DNA from: Rhodocaloribacter litoris
GTDB lineage: Bacteria > Bacteroidota > Rhodothermia > Rhodothermales > ISCAR-4553
Direction: 5' to 3'
DNA: 64,000 bases
NCBI RefSeq assembly: GCF_011682235.2
Contig: NZ_CP076718.1
Span: 2,339,793 to 2,403,792, forward strand
Position numbers and translations under genes: made by a program. Below are positions 53,246-57,348 of the stretch, in pieces (the stretch's first letter is position 1; every line of letters starts with the position of its first letter). Below the pieces are notes generated by a model. That model searched no databases. It was given only the letters and a program-made list of their open reading frames with translations, and was not told the DNA's origin.

Positions 53246-54085
53246 CTAGCTGTCCAGAAACAGCGGGGCAGGGCACGACTTGAGCAGGGCTACCGTCGTG
53301 GAGCCGAAAGCGATCTCCCGGATCTTGGAAACCGAGTGGGCACCCGCCACCACCAGATCGGCGCCATACTCCTCGGCGTGCTTGACGATCAGGTCGGTCG
53401 GGTTGTCTCCCTTCATGCTCTGCGCCTGCACGGGAAAGCCGTGTGCCTTCAGGTAGGCCTGCGCCAGCCGCAGGATCAGCTCCGATTCGGAGGCGCTGTC
53501 CCTGTGTATGTTCAGCAGCTTCACCTCGAGGTCGTCGCCAAAGGGACGCAGGTGTATGAACCGGCGGAGGGCGCGTGCGGACGCCCTGCTGCCGTCGTAA
53601 GCCACCAGCACCCGCTTCACCGGGTGGTAGGCTCCTCCCACCACCAGCGTCGGCGCAATGGTGTTTTTGACGACACGCGCCAGGGTGTTGGTGTCCTGTT
53701 TCGAATGGCCGTAGAAGAAGTGCGGATCCTTGCCGACGACGAGGAGATCGTGGTAGTTCATGTCTTCCACGATGCGTTCGAACGGAACGCCTTCCTCCAC
53801 CACTTCCGTGTGCGGCAACCCGGCCTTTTCGACCTCCTTCTGAAACGAGGCAATCAGCTGCTGCGCGACGGCGCGCGTCTCCTCGGTCAGCCGCTCGCGA
53901 AGCTTCTCGGCGTAATACATGCTGCCGATGCCCCCGCCGCGCGCGCTGGCCTCGATGCTACCCAGGTCTACGACGGCCAGGCCGGTCACCTCGGCACCAT
54001 ACCGCCGGGCAATGTCCTCGGCATACCGGATGGCCACCAGGGTGTCCGAGTCGGGATCCAGCGCCACAAGAATTCTTTTGATCAT
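53246..54085 (-). CDS. Universal stress protein with two USP domains
   Basis: 279 residues from ATG 54085 (MIKRILVALDPDSDTLVAIR). Two tandem USP domains: the first ends VVKNTIAPTLVVG, the second begins VKRVLVAYDGSRASARALRR and ends STTVALLKSCPAPLF. The segments GxxGS and VAYDGS are ATP-binding-type. It acts in the cytoplasm in stress survival. It converges on the TPR protein gene, 8 bases apart. Confidence 0.93.
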   Translation of the reverse strand: MIKRILVALDPDSDTLVAIRYAEDIARRYGAEVTGLAVVDLGSIEASARGGGIGSMYYAEKLRERLTEETRAVAQQLIASFQKEVEKAGLPHTEVVEEGVPFERIVEDMNYHDLLVVGKDPHFFYGHSKQDTNTLARVVKNTIAPTLVVGGAYHPVKRVLVAYDGSRASARALRRFIHLRPFGDDLEVKLLNIHRDSASESELILRLAQAYLKAHGFPVQAQSMKGDNPTDLIVKHAEEYGADLVVAGAHSVSKIREIAFGSTTVALLKSCPAPLFLDS

Positions 54086-54289
54086 GGCAGACCCATGCTG
54101 CATTGTGGGGATTCGGTCCACAAACTTAAGCGAAGGAGACGGCGCGCACAATCGGTCCGGTGAGAAAACCGTACAAAGGCGCCCTGCATATTCCTTTCCG
54201 GTAATACAACGGCAACCCGGACACAGGCACCGGTATACCGGCGTGTATCAATCCTCTCCCTGCCTGTCCCCCGCGTTTCCCACACCCTT

Positions 54290-54690
54290 TTCTATAACAG
54301 TTTTTTTAAAGAATCGGATGTTTTAGTAGTAGTAGGATCTGTGGAAATGTGGACAACGGAAAAATCCACATCGGGGTGGGTGATGGGTGGATAAAAAGGA
54401 GGGTTGATCCCCAGCCTGTCCACACGGAGGGTGCGTTTTGAAGTCGCGGGCGTACGTGTTTTGCGCGGAAAGGGCGGGTTATGCACGTTTCCACCGTTGT
54501 CCACAGAAAAGAGGGGAACGACGGCCGGAATTTGTCCACCGTGGCGGGGGATGTGGATCGATCCGGATAACGTGTGCGGGAGGAGGGGGAAAATCCACAC
54601 GTGTCCACATCGTGGATAACCCGGCGGGTTTATCCAGACCTCGTCCCCCGGCTTATCAACGGGTTGTCCACGGTGTGGAAAGCGAAAAGG
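54290..54690. other. Probable chromosomal replication origin (oriC): cluster of DnaA boxes
   Basis: No gene lies in 54086-54718. Some 16 sites match TTATCCACA or its complement at 7-8 of 9 bases. Those at 8 of 9 are 54348-54356, 54386-54394, 54497-54505, 54611-54619 and 54630-54638; others include 54362, 54416, 54479, 54532, 54552, 54591, 54601, 54653 and 54664. They lie on both strands in about 340 bases. An AT-rich stretch (54296-54325) with a DnaA-trio stands at the left end, as the unwinding element. Genes to the left run mainly leftward and to the right mainly rightward. dnaA itself is not in the window. Confidence 0.85.
54324..54335 (+). promoter_or_regulatory. DnaA-trio element
   Basis: TAGTAGTAGTAG, that is four 3'-GAT-5' trinucleotides in a row, placed next to DnaA boxes at 54340-54356 and adjoining the AT-rich tract. 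This is the arrangement described for the bacterial origin unwinding region, where DnaA loads on single strand from the box into the trios. Confidence 0.8.
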
Positions 54691-54718
54691 GCGGCTGCGG
54701 ATGGCCGGCGCGGGGCCG

Positions 54719-56008
54719 TCACGGTTTTCCGAGAAGGGCGAACATCTCTTTCTTGTAGGCCTCGACGCCCGGCTGATCGAAGGGGTTGATGCCGAGCAGG
54801 TAGCCGCCGACGGCCACGGCGTGCTCGAAGAAGTAGAGGCAGGCCCCCAGGTCGCCGGGGGCGATGCGGTCGAGCCAGAGGGTCATGGCCGGCACGCCGC
54901 CGGCGACGTGCGCGCGGAGGGTTCCCTCGTAGGCCTGGCGGTTGATGTGGCGCATCGTCTGTCCGGCGAGGTAGTCGAGCCCGTCCAGGTTGTCGCCGGT
55001 GGCGGGCACCGGCAGGTCGCCGCCGTCGTGCTCGGCCATGAGGAACGTCTCGATGAGCAGGCGTTTGCCATCTTGCACGTACTGGCCGAGCGAGTGGAGG
55101 TCGGTCGAGTACTGGACGACGGCGGGGAAGAGGCCTTTGTGGTCCTTCCCCTCACTCTCGCCGAAGAGCTGTTGCCACCACCCGCCGATGCCGGCCAGGC
55201 GCGGCTCGAAGACGGCCAGCACTTCGACGGCATAGCCGTGCTCGTGGAGCAGGTAGCGCCGGGCGGCATAGTCGAGCGCGGGGTTGTCCCCGGTGCCGGA
55301 GAACCGGCGGCAGGCGTCGACGGCGCCATAGAAAAGGGCGTGGATGTCGATGCCGGCGACGGCGATGGGAAGGAGGCCGACGGGGGTGAGGACGGAGAAG
55401 CGCCCGCCCACGTCTGGCGGGATGACGTATTTCTTATAGCCCTTCTCCGCCCGGAGTTGGTTGAGGGCACCGCGTTCCGGGTCGGTGGTGACGATGATGC
55501 GGCGGTCGGCGTCGTCGAACCGGGCTTCGAGCCACTGCCGGAGGAAGCGGAAGGCCAGCGCGGGCTCCAGCGTGGTGCCGCTCTTGGAGATGACGTTCAG
55601 GTAGACCGACTTTCCTTCGAGGTAGGCCATCAACTCGCGCAGGTAGGCGCCGCTCATGTGGTGGCCGGCGAAGAGGATCTCGGGCGTGCGGGGGGCGTCG
55701 TCCCCGCGGCGGGCCGGGAAGTAAGGCGTGAGGGCGTCGATGACCGCCTTCGCGCCGAGGTAGGACCCGCCGATACCGATACAGACGAGCACGTCCGCAC
55801 GCTCGCGGATCTCGGCGGCCGTCGCGGCGAGGTCTTCGAGCAGGGCGTCGTTCGGAGAGAGCAACAGGTCGCGCCAGCCCGTAAATTCGTGTCCGGCGCC
55901 CGTCTTTTCGATGAGGGCGCGATGGGCTGCCTCCACCCGGGGGCGCAGGGTCTCCAGGGCACTTTTCTCTATGAAAGCGTCAACCGGCGTCGGGTCGAAT
56001 CGGAGCAT
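54719..56008 (-). CDS. pgi: Glucose-6-phosphate isomerase
   Basis: 429 residues from ATG 56008 (MLRFDPTPVDAFIEKSALET). It interconverts glucose-6-phosphate and fructose-6-phosphate. LVCIGIGGSYLGAKAVIDAL, NVISKSGTTLEPALAF and the C-terminal GGYLLGINPFDQPGVEAYK are family signatures. The size matches the shorter bacterial type. The open frame continues to 56134 without family-like sequence. It reads toward the origin, against the trend of its neighbours. Confidence 0.96.
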   Translation of the reverse strand: MLRFDPTPVDAFIEKSALETLRPRVEAAHRALIEKTGAGHEFTGWRDLLLSPNDALLEDLAATAAEIRERADVLVCIGIGGSYLGAKAVIDALTPYFPARRGDDAPRTPEILFAGHHMSGAYLRELMAYLEGKSVYLNVISKSGTTLEPALAFRFLRQWLEARFDDADRRIIVTTDPERGALNQLRAEKGYKKYVIPPDVGGRFSVLTPVGLLPIAVAGIDIHALFYGAVDACRRFSGTGDNPALDYAARRYLLHEHGYAVEVLAVFEPRLAGIGGWWQQLFGESEGKDHKGLFPAVVQYSTDLHSLGQYVQDGKRLLIETFLMAEHDGGDLPVPATGDNLDGLDYLAGQTMRHINRQAYEGTLRAHVAGGVPAMTLWLDRIAPGDLGACLYFFEHAVAVGGYLLGINPFDQPGVEAYKKEMFALLGKP

Positions 56009-56133
56009 CGCGGAAGGGGATCGGGTTGGTAGGGACCGTGGAAGGTGTCGCCGCATGAACAGACGCAGCGGGTGTTTGTACATCCAAAATTCTAAATTCG
56101 AGAACCGAAAAATCCGGGAGGGGGAGAATAACA

Positions 56134-57348
56134 ATGCGTGAATTCATTTCGGTGGAGGAGGCCCGTGCGCTGGTGCTGGAGGCGGTGGCAGCGCAGCCGG
56201 TGGAGCGTGTCCCGCTGGCGCAGGCCTACGGGCGGACGCTGGCGGAGCCGGTGGTGAGCCGCGAGCACATCCCGCCGTTCGACAACGCGGCGATGGACGG
56301 GTTTGCCGTGCGGAGCGCGGATCTGGCGACGTTGCCGTCTTCGCTGCGGGTGATCGAGGACGTGCGGGCAGGGGGAATCCCTTCGCACGCCATCGTGCCG
56401 GGCACGTGCGCGCGCATCATGACCGGGGCCCCCGTGCCGGAGGGGGCGGACACGGTCGTGCCGGTGGAGTGGACGGAGACCGGTGAGGACGCGGGTTCGG
56501 TCCGGATGCTGCGGGTGCCGCCGGCAGGAGGGCACGTGCGCCGGGCGGGCGAGGACGTGCGGGCGGGCGAGACGGTGCTCGGGGCGGGGGCGGTCGTGAC
56601 GCCGCCCGTGGTGGGCCTGCTGGCGACGCTGGGGTATGCCGAGGTGGCCGTGCGCGTGCCGCCGCGGGTGGCCGTCGTCGCCACGGGCGACGAGCTGGTG
56701 CCCCCGGAGGCGACGCCGGGGCCGGGGCAGATCCGAAACGCCAACGGGCCGGCCCTCGCCGCGCAGGCCCAGGCCGCCGGCGCCGAGGTCCTGCCGCCCC
56801 TGCACGCCCGCGACACGCTCGAGGACATCCGCACCGCCGTCGAGCGGGCCCTGGAAGCCGACGTGCTCGTCTTCTCCGGCGGGGTGTCGGTGGGGGACTA
56901 CGACTTCGTGAAGCAGGTGCTCGACGAGATGGGCCTGACGCTGCGGTTCTGGAAGGTGCGGCAGCGCCCGGGCAAGCCCCTGGCCTTCGGGCTGCTCGGC
57001 GGCAAGCCCGTCTTTGGCCTGCCCGGCAACCCGGTTTCCTCGGCGGTGTGCTTCGAGCAGTACGTCCGCCCGGCGCTGGCGAAGATGCTGGGGCGGGCCG
57101 CGGTGCTGCGCCCGTGCCTGCGGGCCGTCCTGGCGGCGCCGGCGAAGAAGGTGGCCGGGCTGCACTATTTCGCCCGCGGCGTCGCCGCCACCGGCGCGGA
57201 CGGGCGCCTCACGGTGCACCTGGCCGGGCCGCAGGGCTCACACGTCTATACCTCGGTCGTACGGGCGAACTGCCTCGTTCACCTGCCTGAAACGATGGTG
57301 GATCCGGAAGCCGGCACGCTTGTTGACGTGGAATGGTTGAACTGGTGA
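56134..57348 (+). CDS. moeA: Molybdopterin molybdotransferase MoeA
   Basis: 404 residues, with GGGAGGGGGAG before the ATG. It inserts molybdate into molybdopterin. PPFDNAAMDGFAV, RIMTGAPVPEGADTVVP, VAVVATGDELVPP, FSGGVSVGDYDFVK and VFGLPGNPVSSAVCF are the standard segments in order. No other molybdenum-cofactor gene is in the window. Confidence 0.96.
   Translation: MREFISVEEARALVLEAVAAQPVERVPLAQAYGRTLAEPVVSREHIPPFDNAAMDGFAVRSADLATLPSSLRVIEDVRAGGIPSHAIVPGTCARIMTGAPVPEGADTVVPVEWTETGEDAGSVRMLRVPPAGGHVRRAGEDVRAGETVLGAGAVVTPPVVGLLATLGYAEVAVRVPPRVAVVATGDELVPPEATPGPGQIRNANGPALAAQAQAAGAEVLPPLHARDTLEDIRTAVERALEADVLVFSGGVSVGDYDFVKQVLDEMGLTLRFWKVRQRPGKPLAFGLLGGKPVFGLPGNPVSSAVCFEQYVRPALAKMLGRAAVLRPCLRAVLAAPAKKVAGLHYFARGVAATGADGRLTVHLAGPQGSHVYTSVVRANCLVHLPETMVDPEAGTLVDVEWLNW

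Follow-up and report, generated by a model that had tools for sequence, protein, structure and literature searches.

The intergenic stretch at positions 54290-54690 of the window (the whole 64,000-nucleotide stretch of DNA that was analyzed) is, with a probability of roughly 90%, the chromosomal replication origin (oriC) of this Rhodothermales bacterium, and its sequence predicts a basal unwinding system (BUS). The preliminary description had proposed an oriC here, and the proposal was supported by the fit to the BUS, by the uniqueness of the element in the genome sequence sampled, by a locus that recurs across the order and by a GC-skew switch in three relatives. Confidence stays short of certainty because the skew test was not borne out in the organism's own genome. 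Three observations stand against the oriC reading, namely the offset of the own-genome skew minimum, parS sites that lie nearer to dnaA than to the element, and one relative (G030) without a clear skew switch. The novelty very probably lies in the location: an origin of a known kind at a locus that is conserved across the order and uncoupled from dnaA.

Architecture of the usp-pgi element

The source genome consists of a single contig (C1) of 4,502,320 bases. The window covers C1:2,339,793-2,403,792 and places the candidate oriC at C1 ~2,394,082-2,394,482. The element occupies a gene-free gap of ~630 bases (~54086-54718) between usp, coding for a universal stress protein (53246-54085, minus strand; Pfam PF00582, E=2.5e-28), and pgi, coding for glucose-6-phosphate isomerase (54719-56134, minus strand; Pfam PF00342, E=3.5e-21). 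Close matches to usp in named genomes came from Rhodothermales and from metagenome bins of other Bacteroidota. No RNA family, promoter or terminator was found in the gap. Since both flanking genes are on the minus strand, there is no change of gene direction at the element itself, and the earlier statement that direction changes across it was wrong; plus-strand genes begin beyond pgi.

Eighteen DnaA-box-like sites that differ from TTATCCACA at no more than two positions were counted in 54291-54690, five of them with at most one mismatch and none perfect. This bore out the preliminary estimate of about 16 sites within ~340 gene-free bases. Dinucleotide shuffles of the same stretch (n=2000) gave a mean of 1.2 boxes and a maximum of 5, and 18 was reached in none of them. 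The loose-box scan covered 781 kb of the own genome rather than every base, and within this sample the gene-free cluster had no equal, as the runner-up held 7 sites per 400 bp (versus 18). Similar clusters in many other places, which the preliminary description had named as evidence against an origin, were not seen in the 781 kb. By strict boxes alone (TTNTCCACA) the usp-pgi site is unremarkable; ~4 pairs of such boxes lie within 400 bp of each other genome-wide, one of them before dnaA. The distinctive trait of the site is the density of near-matches combined with the trio layout.

The succession of AT-rich tract, trios and boxes reported earlier was confirmed and fits the published BUS. The AT-rich tract, the proposed DNA unwinding element, extends over 54290-54323 and contains TTTTTTTAAA at 54301-54310. 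Its AT content is 77% at 54290-54319 versus ~40% upstream, in a genome with 65-70% GC. The tract is followed by four DnaA-trios on the plus strand, 5'-TAGTAGTAGTAG-3' (54324-54335; 3'-GAT-5' four times), apparent in the sequence and recovered by the BUS-style scan, and by a 4-bp spacer, GATC (54336-54339), which is GC-rich in most relatives (GGGC, GGCC or GGCG). The DnaA box adjoining the trios, ATTTCCACA (54340-54348, minus strand), was found by the box scan, the BUS-style scan and the alignment. A second, tandem box, TTGTCCACA (54348-54356, minus strand), follows at an 8-bp offset and overlaps the first by one base. The box scan and the alignment also placed a third box, AAATCCACA, in the opposite orientation (54362-54370, plus strand), and beyond it the box scan detected an array of 15 further box-like sites with at most two mismatches, in both orientations (54386-54682).

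Under the published search rule for a BUS, three or more NAN trios must lie no farther than 16 bp from a box that has up to two mismatches (PMC8287927). A script following this rule was applied to 485 kb of the own genome, the dnaA region included. At 54324-54356, which conforms to the rule, it returned a run of four CTA read on the opposite strand, at distances of 4 bp and 12 bp from the two boxes, and in the 485 kb around the element no other site had at least three CTA trios; the stretch upstream of dnaA yielded no hit. The four TAG repeats agree with the trio consensus, 3'-GAT-5' with its central adenine, from which the TTG-bearing part of family f12 departs. The polarity of the trios relative to the boxes is that of the published BUS, and the tract of 77% AT adjoins them as the BUS unwinding element does.

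The element resembles the BUS of Bacillus subtilis oriC/incC and its predicted homologues (PMC6669920, PMC8287927, PMC10721633) in its tandem boxes, its spacer of ~4 bp, its 3'-GAT-5' trios of the same polarity and the AT-rich tract beyond them. It differs from the B. subtilis BUS in lying away from dnaA, in having boxes that share one base and in a spacer that is not wholly GC-rich. Escherichia coli oriC is an example of a bacterial origin distant from dnaA. The element is likewise intergenic, rich in DnaA boxes and tens of kb from dnaA, whereas the flanking usp and pgi genes and the regular TAG trios beside tandem boxes set it apart from the E. coli origin.

The sequence elements, their conservation and the skew match in relatives were observed, and by analogy with B. 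subtilis we infer that DnaA would bind, unwind and initiate at this site. On the model of the B. subtilis BUS (PMC6669920, PMC8287927, PMC10721633), DnaA would bind the box array, and the tandem boxes at 54340-54356 would set its position. DnaA would then form an oligomer that crosses the 4-bp spacer, extends along the TAG trios in their single-stranded form (54324-54335) and stretches and melts the AT-rich tract (54290-54323), where the helicase could then be loaded.

Conservation across the order

From relatives at the family and order level, a DNA search with the element recovered the trio-box core next to pgi. Both neighbors are conserved, usp on the side of the unwinding element and pgi on the side of the box array. 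The pgi orthologues had the same cluster downstream, and at least nine boxes per 400 bp adjoined pgi in 24 of the 30 pgi loci. In G030 the element was flanked by usp and pgi, as in the source genome. In G006 the pgi orthologue was absent from the locus, and the element was flanked by usp and by moeA, which comes after pgi in the window; in G009 and G029 it was still located beside usp, with pgi elsewhere.

Thirty-two loci were aligned without gaps, and TGTGGA was present at the first-box position in all 32, this box being the anchor of the alignment. The spacing from the unwinding tract to the second box was constant. Many relatives had a counterpart of the third box (ATCCACA-, ATGCACA- or CCCACA-like) at the same distance and the TTTAAAA-like core of the AT-rich tract at a similar one. 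The strict pattern TAGTAG-N(2-12)-TGTGGANNTGTG occurred at a single place in the own genome, in three registers of one repeat, and was found in 29 of 114 genomes of the order, with controls near zero. In the same 114-genome search, neither f4 nor f14 contained a match to the trio-box patterns; to the extent that the patterns can show, the locus is thus not shared by all families. Judged by sequence comparison, most families of the order keep the architecture of the element, with usp and/or pgi next to it.

GC skew, dnaA and alternative readings

GC skew was sampled in stretches of each genome. In three single-contig relatives (G003, G007 and G022) its sign changed near the element and not at dnaA, at a distance of no more than 10 kb in G003 and G022 and of ~30 kb in G007. 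The skew of G003 was -0.042 at 20-30 kb and +0.036 at 30-40 kb, with the element at ~32 kb and dnaA at ~1 kb. In G022 it switched from -0.044 to +0.047 at ~585 kb, and the element is located at 586 kb. G007 went from -0.055 to +0.015 within 1145-1165 kb, and from 1185 kb onward its values were clearly positive; ahead of the switch, the final half-sample with a strongly negative value stops at the element (1154.6 kb), and dnaA lies at 923 kb. Extra skew wiggles were present in G007 at 1025-1075 kb, and the skew of G030 was noisy.

In the own genome, dnaA is located at C1 2323.5-2325.1 kb, ~70 kb from the element, in agreement with the preliminary remark that the two are not adjacent. An origin directly upstream of dnaA (C1 ~2,323.2-2,323.5 kb), with the usp-pgi cluster in a secondary role, is improbable. 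dnaA is the classical origin marker, from which the G003 and G016 assemblies are numbered, and five boxes, two of them perfect TTATCCACA, lie within ~240 bp upstream of it (L013:8243-8479). These boxes are without trios, however, and no TAG (CTA) trio beside a box was found upstream of dnaA in the own genome or in 20 regions from relatives. DnaA boxes ahead of dnaA are expected from autoregulation, and the five boxes are probably autoregulatory. Among genomes, moreover, dnaA lay anywhere from ~9 to 400 kb from the element, which stayed conserved regardless, and the three relatives described above have no skew switch at dnaA.

Palindromes resembling parS (TGTTTCACGTGAAACA; one copy has a mismatch) were located at three positions, C1 2284006, 2289474 and 2296548. 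In the own genome parS is ~27-40 kb from dnaA versus 98-110 kb from the element, which favors an origin at dnaA. In all nine genomes searched (the source and eight relatives) parS was found on the side of the element that faces usp, at a distance of 25-110 kb, and its distance from dnaA was ~265 kb in G007, ~380 kb in G030 and ~199 kb in G044.

It is very unlikely that the usp-pgi cluster is a DnaA titration or reactivation site (datA-like or DARS-like) instead of an origin. Sites of the datA and DARS type are clusters of DnaA boxes away from dnaA, which is in keeping with the position of the cluster, but neither fixed-spacing trios with an unwinding element nor a skew switch would be expected at them, and both are present across the order.

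Up to ~2.3 Mb the own-genome skew was mostly negative and beyond 2.5 Mb it was positive; the broad, flat trough between the two includes the element. The preliminary description had predicted a GC-skew minimum at the element; in the own genome this prediction failed, as the regional cumulative minimum is a sharp turn at C1:2,494,744, ~100 kb to the right, within a rearranged trough. An origin at C1 ~2.495-2.500 Mb, where the regional cumulative GC and GC+TA skews both have their minima, is extremely unlikely: neither a BUS-like site nor a dense cluster of boxes was found there, and the regional skew is noisy and the gene order rearranged with respect to relatives. The sharp turn is thus not explained by a box cluster. 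An rRNA operon as the cause of the turn was rejected, with 0 Rfam matches in 2,475-2,515 kb.

Gene order was compared by blastp. A ~65-kb segment between dnaA and usp (C1 ~2,326-2,391 kb, which includes window positions 1 to ~51600) is inverted relative to G003, and because the adjacencies in G007 match those in G003, the inversion probably took place on the source lineage. A computed re-inversion left the skew minimum at 2.495-2.500 Mb, and the inversion therefore does not explain the ~100-kb offset.

TTG trios, a second DnaA and the probable place of the origin

In 13 of the 114 genomes, all from family f12, TTGTTG replaced TAGTAG at the same distance to the same tandem boxes (G031, G044, G050, G056, G076, G077, G083-G087, G089 and G090; L240-L249). 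The genera concerned are g13, g30, g40 and g43. The TTG element was confirmed beside pgi in three genomes (G044, G050 and G056) and was 12-14 kb from a dnaA gene in G031, G084 and G090. The DnaA of B. subtilis captures the central adenine of the trio via Asn187, and a thymine at this position impairs opening (PMC10721633). A central T, at a position where adenine is regarded as conserved and is captured in B. subtilis, would imply that DnaA recognizes a different base or that it uses the opposite strand. We tentatively consider it possible, from the trio sequences, that a recoding of the single-strand motif that DnaA reads has occurred within the order, to TTG in f12 as opposed to TAG.

In an alignment by motif with the B. 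subtilis sequence, Asn187 corresponded to Thr in the source organism, a further difference from the B. subtilis system. Thr occupied this position in most DnaA proteins examined, the source organism with its TAG trios included. As TAG-bearing genomes also carry Thr, residue 187 does not explain the TTG switch.

A second, divergent DnaA was observed in many Rhodothermales genomes (L264, L265, L267, L276, L279, L281, L283, L285, L287, L289, L294 and L297-L299), and in a tree the second copies formed separate, long-branched groups by family. Among the f12 genomes checked, four with TAG trios have one DnaA each; the TTG genomes checked have at least two, except G083 (62% complete). The second DnaA was rejected as a simple rule for TTG trios, since families f5 and f8 also have one and f5 carries TAG trios. 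The association of TTG trios with a second DnaA in f12 is suggestive only, the genomes of one family not being independent.

No oriC description for Rhodothermus or Salinibacter was found in the literature searched, a search that lay outside DoriC and leaves the absence of such a description unproven. Under the usp-pgi reading, an order of bacteria from marine, hot-spring and salt-lake habitats would have its origin at a conserved locus between usp and pgi and not at dnaA, the usual origin landmark of annotators, at which some assemblies of the order start, two of them ~31 kb off. The reading also makes an origin unwinding region available for comparison in a sharp alignment without gaps, and the natural TTG trio variants are directly relevant to the question of which base DnaA has to read.
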